DNA of 48,215 nucleotides from Microbacteriaceae bacterium 3FA27C10 (GTDB taxonomy: Bacteria; Actinomycetota; Actinomycetes; Actinomycetales; Microbacteriaceae). Positions 9,775 through 17,504 of the stretch are shown here, one piece after another; position 1 is the first letter of the stretch, and each line of letters opens with the position of its first letter. The translations under genes and the position numbers were made by a program. The notes under the pieces are model-generated. The model did not search any database, was not told the DNA's origin, and worked only from the letters and a program-made list of their open reading frames with translations. The stretch spans positions 1 through 48,215 of the forward strand of contig SCNI01000030.1 in assembly GCA_005502775.1 (NCBI GenBank). Reading direction: 5' to 3'.

Positions 9775-10560
9775 ATGTACGCCGTCGAACGCCACGAACG
9801 CATCGGTGAAGCCGTCGTCTCCCACGGCCGGGTGACCGTCGCCGATCTCGCCGAGTCGCTGGGCGTCACCCCCGAGACCGTGCGTCGCGACCTGGACGTG
9901 CTCGAACGCCAAGGGGTGCTGCGCCGCGTGCACGGCGGAGCGGTGGCGCACACCAAGACGAGCCTCGTCGAGTCGAGCGTCGCCGACCGCAGCGACCGGG
10001 CCCGCGAGGCCAAGCTGGCCATCGCCGACGCGGCTATGGGGCTTCTGGGCGAGGGCTTCCGCGGCTCGATCCTGCTCGACGCCGGCACCACCACCGGCGC
10101 CCTGGCGGAGCGGCTCGCCGACTGGCGCTCGGCCGACGGCTCGCAGCTCACCGTCATCACGAACTCGGTGCCGATCGCGGCCCTCCTGCACCTGAACCCC
10201 TCCATCGACCTGCAGCTGCTCGGCGGCTCGGTGCGCGGCGTCACCAGTGCCGCCGTCGGAGCCTTCACCCTCGACCAGCTCGCCCACCTGCGCCCCGACA
10301 TCGCCTTCGTCGGAGCCAACGGCATCAGCGCCGAGTTCGGTCTCAGCACGCCCGACGAACGCGAGGCCTCGGTCAAGGCGGCCATCGTGCGCGCCGCGCG
10401 CCGCTCGGTGGCACTGATCGACTCCAGCAAGCTCGGCGACGAGACGCTGCACCGCTTCGCCGAACTGCGCGAGCTCGACACCCTCATCACCGACCGCGAC
10501 CCGGCCGGCACGCTCTCCGCGGCTCTCGACGCCCTCGACGTGGAGGTGGTGGTCGCGTGA
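9775..10560 (+). CDS. DeoR/GlpR family regulator of the fructose operon
   Basis: A 261-residue DeoR-family protein. The N-terminal helix-turn-helix spans about residues 17-52 (VTVADLAESLGVTPETVRRD, then LERQGVLRRVHGGA), and the C-terminal sugar-phosphate sensor domain carries the family motifs DAGTTTGALAERL, TVITNSVPIA, LLGGSVRG and IAFVGANGIS. Such proteins usually repress and are relieved by a phosphosugar. Here fructose 1-phosphate is the likely effector, because the gene overlaps the 1-phosphofructokinase gene by 4 nt (GTGA) and heads the PTS operon. An inverted repeat at 9699-9731 is a candidate operator. Confidence 0.88.
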   Translation: MYAVERHERIGEAVVSHGRVTVADLAESLGVTPETVRRDLDVLERQGVLRRVHGGAVAHTKTSLVESSVADRSDRAREAKLAIADAAMGLLGEGFRGSILLDAGTTTGALAERLADWRSADGSQLTVITNSVPIAALLHLNPSIDLQLLGGSVRGVTSAAVGAFTLDQLAHLRPDIAFVGANGISAEFGLSTPDEREASVKAAIVRAARRSVALIDSSKLGDETLHRFAELRELDTLITDRDPAGTLSAALDALDVEVVVA

Positions 10561-11561
10561 TCGTCACCGTCACGGTCAACCCCTCGTTCGACCGCACCAT
10601 CGACCTCGCCGCCCCGCTCGCACGCGGGCAGGTGCAGCGCGCCACGAGCTCCACCCAGCAGCCGGGAGGCAAGGGCGTGAACGTCTCGCGCGCCCTGCAC
10701 GCGGCCGGATGCGCGACTCTCGCCATCCTGCCCGCCGCCCCCGGCGACCCCATGGTCGCGGCCCTGGCCGCCGAGGGCATCCCGGTGCAGACGGTGCCGG
10801 TGCGGGCGCGCATCCGCTCGAACACCACGGTCACCGAACCCGACGGCACGACCACCAAGTTCAACGAGCCGGGTGAGCCGCTCGACGCGGCCGATCAGGA
10901 TGCCCTGGTCGCGCTGGTCGTCACACACGCGGCCGCCGCGAGCTGGGTGGTGCTCGCGGGCTCGCTGCCTCCGGGAGTGCCGGACGACTTCTACGCGCGG
11001 CTCGTGGCCGGCATCCGCGACTCGGCCGCCCGCGCGGGCCGGCCCGCGCCCGGCATCGCCGTCGACACCTCCGGTGCGCCCCTCGTCGCCCTCGTGGCAT
11101 CGGGGGAGCCCGTCGACCTCGTGAAGCCGAACGGCGAGGAGCTGCTCGAACTCGCGGCCGGTCTCGGCCTGCCCGTGCCCGAGACCGACCCGGACGCCTT
11201 CGAGGCGGATCGGGAACTCGTGGCCGACGTGGCCGAGCGACTCGTCTCGCCGAGCCTCGGCGCCGCCCTGGTCACGCTCGGCGCTCGCGGCGCCCTGCTC
11301 GTCTCGGCCGACGACATCCTCTCGGCCGACGCCCCGGTCATCGTCGCGCGCAGCACGGTCGGCGCGGGCGACTGCTCGCTCGCCGGCTACCTGCTGGCGG
11401 CCGATCGCGGCGACGACGGATCGGCGCGACTCGCGCAGGCCGTCGCCCACGGCGCCGCCGCCGCCTCCCTGCCCGGATCCACCGTGCCCACCCTCGACCT
11501 CACCCACCCCGACGACATCGTCGTCAGCCACCGTCCGCGCATCGCCGCCGGCCGGAGATAA
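10557..11561 (+). CDS. fruK: 1-phosphofructokinase
   Basis: A 334-residue PfkB-family sugar kinase that converts fructose 1-phosphate, the product of PTS import, to fructose 1,6-bisphosphate. It carries the substrate-binding signature PGGKGVNVSRAL near residue 37, LAGSLPPGVPDDFYARL in the middle, DLVKPNGEEL, and the C-terminal PfkB signature STVGAGDCSLAGYLLA with the catalytic Asp retained; Cys stands where Ser is usual after GAGD. The GTG start overlaps the regulator stop, and the EIIABC gene follows 18 bp later. 6-phosphofructokinase (PfkB) or tagatose kinase activity is less likely given the EIIABC neighbour. Confidence 0.93.
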   Translation: MIVTVTVNPSFDRTIDLAAPLARGQVQRATSSTQQPGGKGVNVSRALHAAGCATLAILPAAPGDPMVAALAAEGIPVQTVPVRARIRSNTTVTEPDGTTTKFNEPGEPLDAADQDALVALVVTHAAAASWVVLAGSLPPGVPDDFYARLVAGIRDSAARAGRPAPGIAVDTSGAPLVALVASGEPVDLVKPNGEELLELAAGLGLPVPETDPDAFEADRELVADVAERLVSPSLGAALVTLGARGALLVSADDILSADAPVIVARSTVGAGDCSLAGYLLAADRGDDGSARLAQAVAHGAAAASLPGSTVPTLDLTHPDDIVVSHRPRIAAGRR

Positions 11562-11579
11562 CGAAGGAGTTACCGAACC

Positions 11580-13718
11580 ATGTCCTCTCTCATCACCACC
11601 GAACTGGTCGTGCTCGACCAGGATCTCGGCGCCGAGAAATCGGGCGTCATCCGCGCGCTCGCCGCCCTCGTGGTCGCCGCCGGCCGCGCCACCGACACCG
11701 AGGCGCTCTACGCCGCCGCCTGGGACCGCGAGAGCAAGACCGACACCGGCATCCCCGGCGGTCTCGCCATCCCGCACTGCCGCTCGGCCGCCGTGCTCGA
11801 GCCGACCCTCGCGATGGCCCGCCCGCGGCCTGCGGTCGACTTCGGCGCCGCCGACGGCCCGGCCGACCTCGTCTTCTTCATCGCCGCGCCCGACGGCGCC
11901 GACCAGGAGCACCTGGTGCTGCTGTCGACGCTCGCGCGCTCGCTCATCAAGCCCGAGTTCGTGGCGGCCCTGCGCGAGGCGCCCGACGCCGAGGCGATCG
12001 TGGCGCTCGTGGAGGGCGCTCTCGCGGGCGTTCCCGGCGCGTCCGCCGCCGCCGCTACTGCGCCTGTCGCCTCGGCGGAGCCCGTCGTCGCCGTCGCTCC
12101 GAAGCCGCTTCTCGTGGCCGTCACAGCCTGCCCCACCGGCATCGCGCACACCTACATGGCTGCCGACTCGCTCGTGGCCGCCGCCGAGCGCGCCGGCGTC
12201 GAGCTCCAGGTCGAGACGCAGGGCTCCTCGGGCGCGCAGCCGCTCGACCCGGCCATCATCGCCCGCGCGGCGGCCGTGGTGTTCGCGGTCGACGTCGACG
12301 TGCGCGACAAGGCCCGCTTCGCCGGCAAGCCCGTCATCCAGGCGCCCGTCAAGCGCGGCATCGACGAACCGGATGCGATGATCGCCGAGGCGCTCGCCGC
12401 CGCCGCCGACCCGCACGCCCGTCGTGTCGCGGGCGACGCGGGCGACGCGAGCGGAGCATCCGCCGCGGCCGCCGACTCGGGTTCGGGCGAGCACATCGGT
12501 GTCAAGCTCAAGCGCTACCTGCTCACGGGCGTCAGCTACATGATCCCCTTCGTCGCAGGCGGCGGTCTGCTCATCGCCCTCGGCTTCCTGCTCGCGGGCT
12601 ACCAGATCAACGCGAACGCCACCGACATCGTGCTGCACAACTCGCTCTGGAACCTGCCCGACGGCGGACTCGGCACCTATCTCGGCGCGGTGTCCTTCGT
12701 CATCGGGGCCGCCTCCATGGGCTTCCTCGTGCCGGCGCTCGCCGGCTACATCGCCTACGCCATCGCCGACCGGCCGGGCATCGCGGTGGGCTTCACCGCC
12801 GGTGCCGTCGCCCTCGTCATGAACGCCGGCTTCCTCGGCGGCCTCGTGGGCGGTCTGCTCGCCGGCTTCATCGCCTGGGCGATCGGGCGACTGCGCGTGC
12901 CCCGCGTCATCCGCGGCCTGATGCCCGTCGTCATCATCCCGCTGTTCGGCTCGATCTTCGCCTCGGGCCTCATGCTGCTCGTGCTCGGCGGCCCGATCGC
13001 GCTGCTCATGACCGGCCTCAACGACTGGCTCTCGTCGCTCACGGGTGCGTCGGCGGTGCTGCTCGGCATCATCCTCGGCGCCATGATGGCCGTCGACCTC
13101 GGTGGCCCCATCAACAAGGTCGCCTACGCCTTCGCGGTCGCGGGCCTCGCCGCGGGAACCGTCGACAACCAGGTGCCGTGGCAGATCATGGCCGCCGTGA
13201 TGGCCGCCGGAATGGTGCCGCCGCTGGCCCTCGCCCTCGCCACGGTGATCGACCGCCGGCTGTTCAGTGCGGCCGAGCGCGAGAACGGCAAGGCGGCGTG
13301 GTTCCTCGGAGCGGCGTTCATCTCCGAGGGGGCCATCCCGTTCGCGGCGGCCGACCCGCTGCGCGTCATCCCGGCCGGCATCGTGGGCAGTGCGCTCACC
13401 GGCGCGATCGTGATGGGCACCGGCGTCACTTCGCAGGCCCCGCACGGCGGCATCTTCGTGTTCTTCGCCATCGGCAACATCGGCATGTTCCTCGTGGCCA
13501 TCGCCGCGGGCATGGTGGTGAGCGCCGGCCTCGTCGTGCTGCTGAAGCGCTACGTGCGCCGTCGCCCGGTCGTCGGCGCCGAAACGGGAGCAGCGGATGC
13601 CGTTCCCGCGTCGGTGACGGCCGTCGCGCCCGTCGCCGGTTCCGTCGCCGTCCCGGCCGCGGTGCCGGCGGGCGCAACCGCTGCACCGCAGCGCGTCCCG
13701 GTGGGCGCCAAGCACTGA
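11580..13718 (+). CDS. fruA: PTS fructose transporter subunit IIABC
   Basis: A 712-residue fused fructose permease of the phosphotransferase system, which imports fructose as fructose 1-phosphate. EIIA is at about residues 1-150 with phosphorylated His66 in GGLAIPHCRS. An Ala-rich linker leads to EIIB at about 178-280, with phosphocysteine Cys184 in TACPTGIAHTYMAADSL. A second Ala/Asp/Gly-rich linker precedes the membrane EIIC domain at about 310-660, which starts with the cytosolic-to-membrane stretch IPFVAGGGLLIALGFLLAG and includes the ISEGAIPFAAADP motif. The A-B-C order is one of the known fructose-permease arrangements. AAGGAG lies just upstream of the ATG. HPr is encoded next, beyond a hairpin. 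Confidence 0.94.
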   Translation: MSSLITTELVVLDQDLGAEKSGVIRALAALVVAAGRATDTEALYAAAWDRESKTDTGIPGGLAIPHCRSAAVLEPTLAMARPRPAVDFGAADGPADLVFFIAAPDGADQEHLVLLSTLARSLIKPEFVAALREAPDAEAIVALVEGALAGVPGASAAAATAPVASAEPVVAVAPKPLLVAVTACPTGIAHTYMAADSLVAAAERAGVELQVETQGSSGAQPLDPAIIARAAAVVFAVDVDVRDKARFAGKPVIQAPVKRGIDEPDAMIAEALAAAADPHARRVAGDAGDASGASAAAADSGSGEHIGVKLKRYLLTGVSYMIPFVAGGGLLIALGFLLAGYQINANATDIVLHNSLWNLPDGGLGTYLGAVSFVIGAASMGFLVPALAGYIAYAIADRPGIAVGFTAGAVALVMNAGFLGGLVGGLLAGFIAWAIGRLRVPRVIRGLMPVVIIPLFGSIFASGLMLLVLGGPIALLMTGLNDWLSSLTGASAVLLGIILGAMMAVDLGGPINKVAYAFAVAGLAAGTVDNQVPWQIMAAVMAAGMVPPLALALATVIDRRLFSAAERENGKAAWFLGAAFISEGAIPFAAADPLRVIPAGIVGSALTGAIVMGTGVTSQAPHGGIFVFFAIGNIGMFLVAIAAGMVVSAGLVVLLKRYVRRRPVVGAETGAADAVPASVTAVAPVAGSVAVPAAVPAGATAAPQRVPVGAKH

Positions 13719-13727
13719 CCCTCCTCA

Positions 13728-13763
13728 CGCCGGCCCCGCGACATCTCTGCTGCGGGGCCGGCG
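13728..13763 (+). terminator. Intercistronic hairpin between fruA and ptsH
   Basis: A 12-bp perfect stem (13728-13739 with 13752-13763) around a 12-nt loop, with no T tract. Its place between fruA and ptsH suggests partial termination or a processing/stabilising stem that would set HPr expression apart from the permease. Confidence 0.45.
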
Positions 13764-13797
13764 TCGCACACTGCTCCACCCCGAAAGGAACCATCCC

Positions 13798-14067
13798 ATG
13801 ACCGAACGAACCGCCACCATCGCCAGCCGTGTCGGCCTGCACGCGCGGCCCGCCTCGCTCTTCATCGAGGCCGTCAAGAAGCAACCGATGCGCGTCACCA
13901 TCTCGAAGGCGGGCAGCGCACCGCTCGACGCCGCGAGCATCCTGTCGATCATGAGCCTCGGCGCCGCCAACGGCGACGTCGTCACCCTCGCCGCCGAGGG
14001 GGAGGGTGCGGATGCCGCACTCGCCGAGCTCGTGGCCCTGCTCGAGACCGACCTCGACGCCGAGTAA
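13798..14067 (+). CDS. ptsH: Phosphocarrier protein HPr
   Basis: An 89-residue HPr, the small phosphoryl carrier between Enzyme I and the sugar-specific EIIA domains. The active-site motif GLHARPAS contains phosphorylated His15. The second conserved region, AASILSIMSLGA, puts Ser47 at the position of the regulatory Ser46 of Gram-positive HPr; whether a HPr kinase exists cannot be judged here. A GAAAGGAAC ribosome site precedes the ATG. It is the last gene of the fructose cluster and is closed by a strong hairpin. No ptsI is present in the window, so Enzyme I must be encoded elsewhere. Confidence 0.95.
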   Translation: MTERTATIASRVGLHARPASLFIEAVKKQPMRVTISKAGSAPLDAASILSIMSLGAANGDVVTLAAEGEGADAALAELVALLETDLDAE

Positions 14068-14182: not shown

Positions 14183-14878
14183 TCAGAAGAGATCGGGCGA
14201 GGGCGTCGAGGTGTGGCGCACCGAGACGTCGGCGTGGCGGTCGAAGCGGTAGCCCGCGCCGCGCACGGTGCGCACGATGTCCTCGTAGTCGCCGAGCTTC
14301 GAGCGCAGGCGGCGCACGTGCACGTCGATGGTGCGCTCGTTCGGAGCCTCCTCGTCGCCGGCGCTCCACAGCGCCGTGATGAGTTCGGCGCGCTCGATGG
14401 TGCGGCCCTCGCGCAGCACGAGGTACTGCAGCAGCTCGAACTCCTTGTAGGTGAGGTTCGCGGCCGTGTTGTCGAGCAGCACCCGCTTGCGGGAGAGGTC
14501 GACGACGACGCCGTCGCGGGCGCGGTCCTGCGCATCCGGAACCTGGCGGTGCTTGGCGAGCGCCGCCGGGTCCTGCAGTGCGAGGCGCACCACGTCGACG
14601 TCGCGGCCGCCGGCCCCGCGGGGCGCGAGGGCCACGGCGGCATAGGTGCCGGAGGAGGGCGCGATCTCGGCGGCGAGGGCCTTCAGCGCCTCGACGATGC
14701 GGCCGAGGTCGGTGCCGTCAGCGGCGGCCTTCTCCTCGTCGATTCCGACGTAGAGAACGAAGCCGCGGGCTTCGACGCCCTCGGGAACAGCGCGGATGTG
14801 AGGAGCCGCGGCGACATCGTCGGCGCGGGGGAGGGGGGTGACATTGGTGGGGCGGGAATCGAGGTGGGCGATCGACAT
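14183..14878 (-). CDS. Winged-helix (OmpR/PhoB-type DNA-binding) regulator without receiver domain
   Basis: A 231-residue protein whose C-terminal half (about 125-222) is an OmpR/PhoB-type winged helix: VVDLSRKRVLLDN, LTYKEFELLQYLVLREGRTI, the recognition region ERTIDVHVRRLRSKL, and the wing IVRTVRGAGYRFD. The N-terminal half lacks the Asp/Lys signature of a response-regulator receiver domain and has no fold I recognise, and no sensor kinase gene is nearby, so phosphorelay control is unlikely. AAGGA lies 6 nt before the ATG. Upstream on the same strand are a leaderless Cys-containing reading frame and a 171-nt leader with small hairpins, suggesting translation-linked control. The regulated genes are unknown. 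Confidence 0.8.
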   Translation of the reverse strand: MSIAHLDSRPTNVTPLPRADDVAAAPHIRAVPEGVEARGFVLYVGIDEEKAAADGTDLGRIVEALKALAAEIAPSSGTYAAVALAPRGAGGRDVDVVRLALQDPAALAKHRQVPDAQDRARDGVVVDLSRKRVLLDNTAANLTYKEFELLQYLVLREGRTIERAELITALWSAGDEEAPNERTIDVHVRRLRSKLGDYEDIVRTVRGAGYRFDRHADVSVRHTSTPSPDLF

Positions 14879-14884
14879 GAGAAG

Positions 14885-15049
14885 TCCTTGAGGCAGCTAC
14901 CCGCGAAGAGGCGGGACAGAGAAGTGTCAGGCTGCGGACTGGAATGGGAGTCCGGGGCAGTATCGGAAGAATCCGATGCTGAGCGCCGTCACCGTTCGAT
15001 CAGCGGGATGAGGCTGACGCGGGAAGGGGCGCTCGACGAAGATCGTCGT
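14885..15049 (-). promoter_or_regulatory. Leader region with candidate attenuator hairpins
   Basis: Between the small cysteine-ended reading frame and the winged-helix regulator gene lie two short inverted repeats: ATCGGA/TCCGAT at 14962-14967 and 14972-14977, and CCCGC/GCGGG at 14900-14904 and 14911-14915. The second stem is 10 nt upstream of the AAGGA ribosome site (14885-14889). This layout suits control in which ribosome position on the leader reading frame changes access to the start of the regulator gene. No experimental support. Confidence 0.35.
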
Positions 15050-15151
15050 TTAGCGGCACATTCGACAACACATGACGACGCTGCCGGCCATCATCATGCC
15101 GGCATCCCCAGGGGCCCCAAAGGAGGTCGCGGAGTGCACGTTGTCAGTCAT
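15050..15151 (-). CDS. Leaderless 33-residue Cys-ended leader peptide
   Basis: An ATG at 15151 opens 33 codons ending MCCRMCR-stop, with three Cys codons among the last six sense codons and an MMM run in the middle (residues 19-21). The A of the ATG coincides with the predicted transcription start of the promoter at 15159-15188, so it would be translated from a leaderless mRNA. It lies 171 nt upstream of, and on the same strand as, the winged-helix regulator gene. Cysteine-responsive attenuation by polycysteine leaderless short reading frames is described in mycobacteria; the analogy here is inference. The peptide itself is too short and hydrophilic/mixed to suggest another function. Confidence 0.55.
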   Translation of the reverse strand: MTDNVHSATSFGAPGDAGMMMAGSVVMCCRMCR

Positions 15152-15158
15152 ACGCAGA

Positions 15159-15188
15159 AGCTAACCCGATGCGGGCGGTCGTTGTCAA
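15159..15188 (-). promoter_or_regulatory. Consensus-like promoter of the leader peptide and regulator gene
   Basis: On the minus strand TTGACA (15183-15188) is followed after 18 bp by TTAGCT (15159-15164), and 7 nt later by the ATG at 15151. The -35 is a perfect consensus. The spacing puts the transcription start on or beside the A of the start codon. Confidence 0.6.
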
Positions 15189-15289
15189 GGCTCGTGGCGC
15201 GATTCGCGGTGTCGGATGGGCGCATCCGGCCGGCCGAGCGCGTGCGACGACGATCGGGTGTGAACGAAGCTCCGGTATAGGTTCGAAGC

Positions 15290-16789
15290 ATGCCCGACAG
15301 TTCCGCACCAGCGTCCGCATCCGCTCCCGCTCCCGGCACAGCGATCCACGGGCGGGCACGGTGGCAGGCCTTCGCCGTGTGCGTGGCTGTGGCGGCGCTC
15401 ACCATCCTCGACCTCTCCAAGGTCAACGTGGGCCTGCCGTCGATCGAGAAGTCGCTCGGCGCGGGCCCCACCGAGCTGCAGGTGATCGTGGCGGGCTACG
15501 CCCTCGCCTTCGGGCTCGCCCTCGTGCCGTCGGGGCGGCTCGGCGACCTCTACTCGCGCAAGGCGATGTTCATCATCGGGCTCAGCGCCTTCACCGTGGC
15601 GAGCGCCCTCTGCGCGATCGCGCCGAGCATCCAGCTGCTGCTCGTGGCGCGCATCCTGCAGGGCGTCGCGGCCGGCGTGCAGATGCCGCAGGTGCTCGGG
15701 CTCGTGCAGCAGCTGTTCCAGGGTGAGGAGCGCGGGCGTGCCTTCGGGCTCTTCGGCGCCACCATCGGGGTGGCCACCGCGATCGGTCCGACGCTCGGCG
15801 GACTGCTCATCGCGATCGGCGGGCCGAGCGACGGCTGGCGGCTGCTGTTCTGGATGAACGTGCCCCTCGGCATCCTGGCCCTGATCTTCGCCCTCCGGCT
15901 GCTGCCCAAGAGCCAGCCGCACTCCGCCGGGGCCCGCGACTTGGACCTCGTGGGGATCCTGCTGCTGGGTGCGAGTGTCTTCACTTTCATGCTGCCGTTC
16001 GTGCTCACCACCGGAGGGCCGGACGACAGCCCCTGGCGCTGGCTGTCGCTGGCCGGATGCGCGGTGGCGGTCGTGCTGTTCATCGCGTGGGAGAGGCGCT
16101 ACGTGGCCATCGGCAAGTCACCGGCCATCCGGTTCGAGCTGTTCCGGCTGGGGTCGTATCGCAACGGGCTGCTGCTCGCCACGGCGTACTTCGCGGCGCT
16201 GCCGGCGGTGTTCCTGCTCACGACGCTGTTCCTGCAGCAGGGGCTCGGCTTCGAGCCGGTGTTCGCGGGCATGGTGAGCATCCCGTTCGCGCTGACCTCG
16301 GCGGTGACTGCGCTCATCGGCGGGCGCCTGGTGGGGCGGTACGGGCGCTCGCTCGTGGTGCTGGGGCTGGTGATCGTGATCGTGGGCCTCGTGCTCGTTC
16401 TGCTCGCCGCGGTGCTGCCGCCGGCGGAGGACTCGATCTGGCTCATGGCCGGGGCAATGGCCGTGGCGGGGGCCGGTGGCGGGCTCGTGATCTCGCCGAA
16501 CCAGACGTTGACGCTCGCCGAGATCCCGCCGACCCAGGGCGGGACGGCCGGGTCGATGGCGCAGGTGGGGCAGCGGGTCGGCACGGCGATGGGGGTGGCC
16601 GCGGCCTCGTCGCTCTTCTTCGCGACCCTCTACCGGGAGGGACCGGGCTCGGGCGACACCGTGATGGTCTACCACGACGGCTTCCGCAGCGGTTTCTTCG
16701 TGGCACTGGGCCTGCTCGCCGTCGCCCTCGTCATCGGCCTCCTCGACCTGCGCCGCCGCCGCACGTCCGCCCCCGGCGCTCCGGCCTGA
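15290..16789 (+). CDS. MFS transporter, DHA2-type (14-segment drug:H+ antiporter-like)
   Basis: A 499-residue major facilitator with about fourteen hydrophobic segments, matching the DHA2 drug exporter group. Motif A is seen as GRLGDLYSRKAM after the second segment, and the exporter-type motif C as GPTLGGLLIAIGGP in the fifth. The protein ends in a short basic tail. Substrate cannot be predicted. The ATG at 15290 follows a TATAGG element (15276-15281) by 8 nt, so the mRNA is probably leaderless. It is divergent from the leader peptide/regulator unit with about 100 bp between the promoters; that the regulator controls this exporter is possible but unsupported. Confidence 0.87.
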   Translation: MPDSSAPASASAPAPGTAIHGRARWQAFAVCVAVAALTILDLSKVNVGLPSIEKSLGAGPTELQVIVAGYALAFGLALVPSGRLGDLYSRKAMFIIGLSAFTVASALCAIAPSIQLLLVARILQGVAAGVQMPQVLGLVQQLFQGEERGRAFGLFGATIGVATAIGPTLGGLLIAIGGPSDGWRLLFWMNVPLGILALIFALRLLPKSQPHSAGARDLDLVGILLLGASVFTFMLPFVLTTGGPDDSPWRWLSLAGCAVAVVLFIAWERRYVAIGKSPAIRFELFRLGSYRNGLLLATAYFAALPAVFLLTTLFLQQGLGFEPVFAGMVSIPFALTSAVTALIGGRLVGRYGRSLVVLGLVIVIVGLVLVLLAAVLPPAEDSIWLMAGAMAVAGAGGGLVISPNQTLTLAEIPPTQGGTAGSMAQVGQRVGTAMGVAAASSLFFATLYREGPGSGDTVMVYHDGFRSGFFVALGLLAVALVIGLLDLRRRRTSAPGAPA

Positions 16790-16871: not shown

Positions 16872-17504
16872 CTAGACCGTGCCGTAGAGGCGGTCGCCGG
16901 CGTCGCCGAGGCCGGGGACGATGTAGCCCTTCTCGTTGAGGCGTTCGTCGAGGGCGCCGAGCACCAGGGTGACGTCGCGGCCCTCGGTGGCCTTCTCGAG
17001 GGCCGCGACGCCTTCGGGGGCTCCGAGCAGGCAGATGGCCGTGACATCCTGAGCCCCGCGCTTGAAGAGGAACTCGATGGCGGCGCTCAGCGAGCCGCCG
17101 GTGGCGAGCATCGGGTCGAGCACGAAGCACTGGCGGTCGGAGAGGTCGTCGGGCAGGCGCTCGGCGTAGGTGGTGGGCTCGAGGGTCTCCTCGTTGCGAA
17201 CCATGCCGAGGAAGCCGACCTCGGCGCTGGGCACGAGCTTCACCATGCCCTCGAGCATGCCGAGTCCTGCCCGGAGGATGGGCACGACGAGCGGGCGCGG
17301 CGCGCTGATCGTGACGCCCGTGGTCTCGGCGACCGGGGTCTGGATGGTGATGGGCTCGACCCGCACGTTGCGGGTGGCCTCGTAGGCGAGCAGCGTCACG
17401 AGCTCTTCCGCGAGGGAGCGGAACGTGGGCGACGGGGTGTTCACGTCGCGCAGAACGGTCAGCTTGTGCGTGATGAGCGGGTGGTCGGCAACGTGAACTC
17501 GCAT
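16872..17504 (-). CDS. upp: Uracil phosphoribosyltransferase
   Basis: A 210-residue UPRTase that makes UMP from uracil and PRPP in pyrimidine salvage. The PRPP-binding loop DPMLATGGS is near residue 130, the family opening is [16 protein letters not shown], followed by [18 protein letters not shown], and the uracil-binding end is [17 protein letters not shown]. Full length. The ATG at 17504 follows a TAGATT -10 element (17511-17516) by 6 nt, so a leaderless transcript is expected. It is divergent from tadA. Confidence 0.96.

Follow-up and report, generated by a model that had tools for sequence, protein, structure and literature searches.

The window analyzed here is a 48,215-nt stretch of contig SCNI01000030.1 from Microbacteriaceae bacterium 3FA27C10, and the locus of interest, a short cysteine-ended leader frame followed by the gene of a winged-helix regulator, lies on its minus strand (Table 1). 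The initial annotation of this DNA had proposed that a TTGACA box and a TTAGCT box place a transcription start on the A of the ATG at 15151, and the elements behind that proposal were read directly in the sequence: the two boxes are separated by an 18-nt spacer, and 7 nt then lead to the A of the ATG. The leader frame encodes MTDNVHSATSFGAPGDAGMMMAGSVVMCCRMCR, its stop codon occupies 15052-15050 (minus strand), and the regulator ATG at 14878 follows the leader stop after 171 nt.

On the plus strand, positions 9775-14067 hold genes named by eye as a DeoR-type regulator, a phosphofructokinase-like kinase, a fructose PTS enzyme and an HPr-like protein, and these converge on the regulator. A divergent MFS transporter (15290-16789) stands between the leader and a uracil phosphoribosyltransferase-like gene (16872-17504). 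In the distant relatives L119 and L121-L123 the end of a upp-like gene was seen, by eye, upstream of the leader on the same strand.

Table 1. Features of the leader-regulator locus in window coordinates
Feature	Positions	Strand	Basis or remark
-35 box, TTGACA	15183..15188	minus	direct reading; box conservation among loci
-10 box, TTAGCT	15159..15164	minus	-13 to -8 relative to the ATG; column counts; rejected by strict scan
Leader ORF, 33 codons plus stop	15050..15151	minus	predicted transcription start is the A of its ATG
Hairpin within leader ORF, GCCGGC-ATGATGATG-GCCGGC, with the MMM codons as loop	15083..15103	minus	sequence
Tail TGT TGT CGA ATG TGC CGC (C C R M C R)	15053..15070	minus	column and GC3 counts
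Post-stop hairpin, arms GAGCGCC (15034-15028) and GGCGCTC (14987-14981)	14981..15034	minus	folds
Shine-Dalgarno-like AAGGA of regulator	14885..14889	minus	direct reading; -11 to -7 of the ATG
Receiver-less winged-helix regulator, 231 aa, no Cys or internal Met	14183..14878	minus	domain, composition, model

Conservation of the leader upstream of the regulator

Regulator loci were drawn from the genomes of 60 relatives (30 loci) and from named genomes (the best 80 of 377 loci), some of them duplicated, and their upstream regions were scanned for a short open reading frame with at least two cysteines among the last ten codons, nothing else being demanded. The leader frame had been described as ending in MCCRMCR ahead of a receiver-less OmpR-type regulator; this is confirmed, and a counterpart was found in 109 of the 110 loci (80 of these being the best 80 of 377), the single miss being a locus cut by a contig edge (L061). 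The closest named relatives of the locus belong to Herbiconiux (Microbacteriaceae), and the genera with leader-regulator loci include Herbiconiux, Agreia, Subtercola, Cryobacterium and Agromyces, and further Frigoribacterium, Salinibacterium, Glaciihabitans and Leifsonia. When the upstream regions of the regulator orthologues are compared, the frame and the cysteine codons are kept, and this widely in the family. Loss of the frame and its cysteine codons in close relatives would have refuted the proposal; both are retained, and the observation is stronger than first claimed.

For the statistics given below, 99 unique loci were used, leaving out L061, nine identical duplicates and L036, in which no ATG start was found and a GTG frame with the tail MCACRMCCCC stands instead. 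The choice of frame in this set required CGN-ATG or AAA-ATG near the stop together with cysteine near the end, so that the methionine of the tail is partly built in, while the occurrence of CGA rather than another CGN codon is not.

A set of 51 more divergent loci, comprising 11 lower-identity orthologues and 40 loci of family genomes in which the regulator is not accompanied by the exact motif, was judged by reading. A clear Met/Cys-rich short frame is present in 40 of the 51; four are ambiguous (L119, L120, L125 and L219), and seven (L124, L210, L213, L220, L225, L235 and L237) have no leader or a Cys-less one. Family genomes lacking the motif numbered 54, and G160, G173, G174 and G182, which hold the regulator, remained outside the leader reading. 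The regulator itself is present in 147 of 150 Microbacteriaceae genomes searched (E 1e-30). Five genomes of 1.3-1.8 Mb (G025, G104, G129, G067 and G167) have kept the regulator with no leader seen (loci L124, L210, L220, L235 and L237, respectively), and other small genomes retain leader and regulator. Cys-richer variants of the leader occur in L126 and L127, ending in ..MCMCMCMCR and ..MCACRMCCCC.

The sequence TGYTGYCGNATGTG has a single occurrence in its own genome, and the pattern TGYCGAATGTGYN{3,6}TRR matches once in each of 16 genomes of the genus, with no match for the reversed control. Second copies of the motif were considered as further leaders and rejected: among 18 loci fetched, six are the regulator leaders themselves, 11 have 9 to 71 codons from motif to stop versus six in leaders, and the copy in L186, where the frame does stop at once, yet lies antisense within a 396-aa ORF. 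An RRMCA pattern applied class-wide was likewise set aside, as among 26 of the 29 loci only L279 stops directly after it, with an uninformative downstream region. Searches of the leader peptide against NCBIfam and Pfam gave no match, and an Rfam search with E up to 1 gave no family. The median pN/pS of the leader is 0.62 (2511 pairs, 74 leaders), which is weak evidence since the synonymous sites are themselves biased.

Start geometry, tail codons and leader RNA

Allowing one mismatch at most, a TTGACA-like box was found 34-40 nt upstream of the ATG in 91 of the 99 unique loci, compared to 47 of 4909 other same-strand ATGs of those loci, and when a -10-like box is required in addition (a simple test) the counts become 65/99 leader starts and 4/4909 other ATGs. 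The best -35 match begins 35 to 40 nt ahead of the ATG in the 99 loci, at 37 nt in 55 of them and at 36 nt in 36, and TTGACA is exact in 80. Leader starts were picked by their best -35 match, which favours the 91/99, and the P values, which ignore kinship, have been left out. A strict sigma-70 scan of 14850-15300 returned no promoter because TTAGCT lacks A at position 2. As a matter of sequence, the geometry supports a transcript that would start at the leader AUG, short of proof in the absence of 5'-end data. A palindrome, TGCAAG..TTGCA, crosses the -10 region in six of the 99 loci, seen in loci such as L024, L026, L065, L071, L077 and L114, and is possibly an operator.

The fourth codon from the stop (-4) is CGA in all 99 loci, and in the regulator genes CGA accounts for 3.3% of arginine codons, against 11.4% in a rough control set. 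Cysteine is found at codon -5 in 99/99 (TGT in 81, TGC in 18) and at -6 and -5 together in 85 (TGT in 81 and TGC in four at -6), giving contiguous cysteine codons close to the stop; among 556 control cysteine codons, TGT accounts for 11.9%. In the 74 leaders of 33 codons, GC3 at C-C-R is.09,.23 and.00, and its median over the remaining 30 codons is.92. Low values also occur at codon 2 (ACT,.11) and codon 16 (.35), so that the bias extends beyond the tail, and the flanking-ORF control set contains some false frames. Codon choice in the tail looks to be under selection, and the rare synonyms thus cluster at the presumed ribosome-timing site, though they occur elsewhere too.

In the first 120 nt past the leader ORF, structure exceeds that of shuffled sequences (mean z -2.17, 49/99 below -2), and the regulator start gives a mean z of +0.86 by the same measure. 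The leader is C-rich (41% C, C/G 1.68, 99 loci), and that of the window has a z of -4.22, with none of 200 shuffles as stable. Its post-stop hairpin appears in both the MFE and the centroid folds, and in L008-L010 and L019 the arms read GAGCACC/GGTGCTC; the RNAalifold consensus favours a pairing other than GAGCGCC/GGCGCTC, and a perfect 7-nt inverted repeat starting 5-45 nt past the stop was found in 33/99 loci. Within the frame, 74 of the 75 leaders carrying ATGATGATG form at least three pairs in one of two registers, and GAC/TCG replaces GGC/CCG at the MMM hairpin in five of the 75, possibly through one event. Given its position in a hairpin loop and this compensatory change, the importance of the MMM run may lie in its RNA and not in its being read as methionine.

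For the way in which such a leader might switch expression, both Rho-dependent termination and a masked ribosome site are retained, since the leader tail and the sequence of the leader downstream of it are not more complementary than in shuffles (mean z +0.24, 2/99 below -2), 14850-15300 holds no intrinsic terminator in the form of a T run behind a G+C-rich hairpin, and no Rfam family is recognized; the RNA switch is in either case an inference. TTTTT is present in four of the 99 leaders. Stretches of CATCAT type, complementary to the MMM codons, lie near the ribosome site, within the last 60 nt before the regulator, in 41/99 loci (for example L062 and L101) and mid-leader in 5/99. Their pairing with the MMM codons was rejected as more than a lead, as CATCAT also occurs in MMM-less loci such as L071, L082, L097 and L114.

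Regulator composition and the tail upstream of metN

In Pfam the regulator matches only the Trans_reg_C winged helix (PF00486, 77.8 bits), and no receiver domain family matches it. Its AlphaFold model has a mean pLDDT of 78.7, with the winged helix well predicted, and its best solved relatives, by sequence and by fold, are the GlnR DNA-binding domains 8hml and 8hig at 44-47% identity; the N-terminal region is unmatched among the PDB matches listed by either search. Across the 99 loci (mean length 244 aa, with starts assigned by a simple rule), cysteine is absent from the regulator in 99 and internal methionine in 98. None of 18 other OmpR-type proteins, mostly from one family (f44) and each trimmed to about 230 aa, is free of both; their mean is 3.9. 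The flanking ORFs contain 0.70% Cys and 1.65% Met, and only 4/252 lack both.

At the divergent loci, 33 of the 51 regulators have neither Cys nor internal Met, and in the other 18 there are one to three such residues. The regulators of the seven divergent loci without a usable leader are Cys-free, one of them with a Met, and the sulfur-free composition is therefore not strictly tied to the leader. Two distant relatives from family f38 (L252 and L253) contain, as read, neither Cys nor internal Met, and a third (L251) has an internal Met. L252 and L253 are preceded by a Cys-ended, leaderless-looking leader of a distinct type with a GTG start, VPRLLLTQRRAVDLMRVASQLCR, which we take to be a sulfur-linked actinobacterial type. 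No match to PF01507 (PAPS/APS reductase) was obtained in the window's own genome, consistent with a reliance on reduced sulfur.

In the part of PMC8079986 available to us, RNA-seq of S. lividans TK24 places a leaderless leader, MSTTSDRTPATEATTTPGARCMCRRMCAF (metL), ahead of metNIQ, reported as being without a typical intrinsic terminator. A related pattern with one mismatch matches 14 of 121 genomes of the Streptomyces-like genus centred on G239. In five loci of that genus that were read, such leaders precede a MetN-like ATPase, one leader being identical to the published metL, and CGA precedes the last ATG in 5/5 although the pattern left CGA free. Class-wide, TGYCGAATGTGYN{3,6}TRR matches 90 of 394 genomes; the reversed control matches 18, so that part of the 90 is chance. 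Outside the family 20 loci were read; of these, 13 in the G239 genus and L377, L380 and L382 from three further genera have a short frame with a TGY-CGA-ATG-TGY tail and a MetN-like frame downstream, judged by eye from an overlapping frame in L365, L367, L370 and L375. The leader start of L380 is ambiguous, L371-L373 represent a repeated non-leader match, and L381 was uninformative. The downstream proteins of L311, L376, L377, L380 and L382 have MetN as best match (357-378 bits, under the NCBI cut-off), with a NIL domain in 5/5. A search for MetN in the window's own genome gave 104 ABC-type matches, the best of them 202.8 bits versus 357-378 bits for those five, and a MetN of that genome was accordingly rejected.

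Proposed mechanism, alternatives and known systems

Conservation of the leader, its leaderless geometry, the biased codons, the sulfur-free regulator and the occurrence of the same tail before metN are observed, and we consider it likely that they reflect a leader acting in cis, which would respond to the supply of cysteine (perhaps methionine) and thereby adjust how much of a sulfur-starvation regulator is made. Translation itself, the amino acid sensed, the sign of the response, the RNA switch and the target genes are inferred, there being no expression or ribosome data. In the proposed sequence of events, a ribosome would start on the 5' AUG of a leaderless transcript, translate the 33 codons, and near their end reach UGU UGU CGA AUG UGC, where the cysteine codons are mostly of the rarer form and flank a rare CGA. 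With ample supply it would run to the stop and depart, and with charged tRNA-Cys (perhaps tRNA-Met) scarce it would stall at the tail. The stalled ribosome could reach toward the structured C-rich leader and so decide if the regulator is made, through a block of Rho-dependent termination or through unmasking of the ribosome site. When sulfur amino acids are short, the level of the regulator would be expected to rise, and the regulator to turn on sulfur scavenging; having no Cys, and no Met besides its start, it could still be made during that shortage.

The initial annotation had suggested that such a design would put a transcription factor under cysteine or sulfur-status control. That suggestion is supported, on the evidence of the DNA alone, by the near-constant lack of Cys and internal Met in the regulator and by the same tail before methionine importers, with cysteine sensing remaining an inference without expression data. 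We are evenly divided over a fuller version, a family-wide circuit in which the charging of Cys (perhaps Met) tRNA would be read through a slow Cys-Cys-CGA-Met-Cys stretch, with CGA, presumably decoded by an inosine tRNA, as a fixed timer codon, and would set the level of a GlnR-like regulator from which evolution has removed the sulfur amino acids, its synthesis thus remaining possible at the very time when these are exhausted.

Some of these observations admit other explanations. The conserved stretch (CGAATGTG) could act as DNA or RNA, for instance as an operator, a hairpin or a protein site, with the open frame incidental, and the near-invariance of CGA-ATG-TG at the nucleotide level, the compensatory change in the MMM hairpin and the structured leader would all be in keeping with this. 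We nevertheless regard it as unlikely, given that the frame, the start distance and the stop are kept while the third positions of the Cys codons and the last codon vary, and that C-R-M-C stands in frame in the leaderless metL leader as well. Sensing of copper, another metal or redox state by a Met/Cys-rich nascent peptide, with the regulator governing metal or oxidative stress, appears somewhat less likely still. The most conserved part of this peptide is its last seven residues, which would still be inside the ribosome tunnel; nor would such sensing agree with the biased synonymous codon choice at the tail, the methionine importers that follow the same tail, or the lack of both sulfur amino acids in the regulator. 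What it has in its favor is the Met- and Cys-rich peptide, two leaders that finish in MCMCMCMCR and MCACRMCCCC, and a report elsewhere, available to us in part, of copper sensing by a nascent exported protein (PMC9973294).

We give least credence to a general translation-stress leader of the whiB7 type, answering any ribosome slowing or antibiotic. It has a model in whiB7, itself a transcription factor under a stall-sensing leader ORF according to the portion of PMC13236596 at hand, but it does not sit well with conserved cysteine codons, rare synonyms at C-C-R, a sulfur-free product, and the recurrence of the tail before metN.

If the cysteine-sensing leader is as proposed, it would name a sensor and a probable purpose for a regulator that otherwise matches only a generic domain, and a leader peptide would here set the level of a transcription factor by the supply of sulfur amino acids. 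The composition test, in which a protein is without the very amino acids whose shortage it signals, could then be used to find similar regulators, and the invariant CGA makes codon choice in a leader peptide directly testable.

Leader peptides of this kind are known, among them the Cys leaders before cys operons, metL, the cysS attenuator already known in Rhodobacterales, and whiB7. A literature search gave no report of the present leader-regulator pair, with most subscription journals outside its scope. In its DNA-binding part the regulator resembles GlnR in having a winged helix, and differs from the GlnR comparison in having no recognizable receiver and an unmatched N-terminal region; it shares the winged helix with OmpR/PhoB-type proteins and lacks their N-terminal receiver. 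Rv0485 of the mycobacterial comparison is presumably a regulator gene. Figure 7B of Shell 2015, a source available only in part, has a uORF at Rv0485, a possible precedent for the leader-regulator arrangement.

The remaining comparisons also rest on partial texts of the sources named. The polycysteine attenuators of mycobacteria (Canestrari 2020, as cited in PMC9031893, PMC9094748 and PMC13236596, with PMC4633059 earlier) are alike in having a short ORF with Cys codons near its end and, as is predicted for the window, a leaderless start and control in cis through the speed of the ribosome at those codons; the genes that follow them are cysteine-metabolic or hypothetical, whereas the leader of the window precedes a regulator gene. 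The Cys-run leaders of cys/cbs operons in Mycobacterium, P. acnes and B. longum (PMC1262725) likewise place Cys codons near the stop and have no conserved terminator, Rho having been proposed, but they precede biosynthetic operons and carry Cys runs rather than C-C-R(CGA)-M-C. With whiB7 (PMC13236596) the present locus would share a transcription factor under ribosome stalling on a leader ORF, and it differs in regulator class and in signal. The metL leader is similar in its short ORF, with an R-M-C-A-F end after Cys/Arg, its leaderless start, in the window a prediction, and the terminator-less leader, and it has the C-R(CGA)-M-C tail next to the stop in common with the leader of the window. 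It lacks the GMMMP hairpin, and a profile of 87 distinct leaders did not detect metL significantly, so that there is no whole-peptide similarity by profile and common descent is not shown; we claim only a shared tail and setting, with a transporter operon downstream of metL and a regulator downstream of the leader described here.
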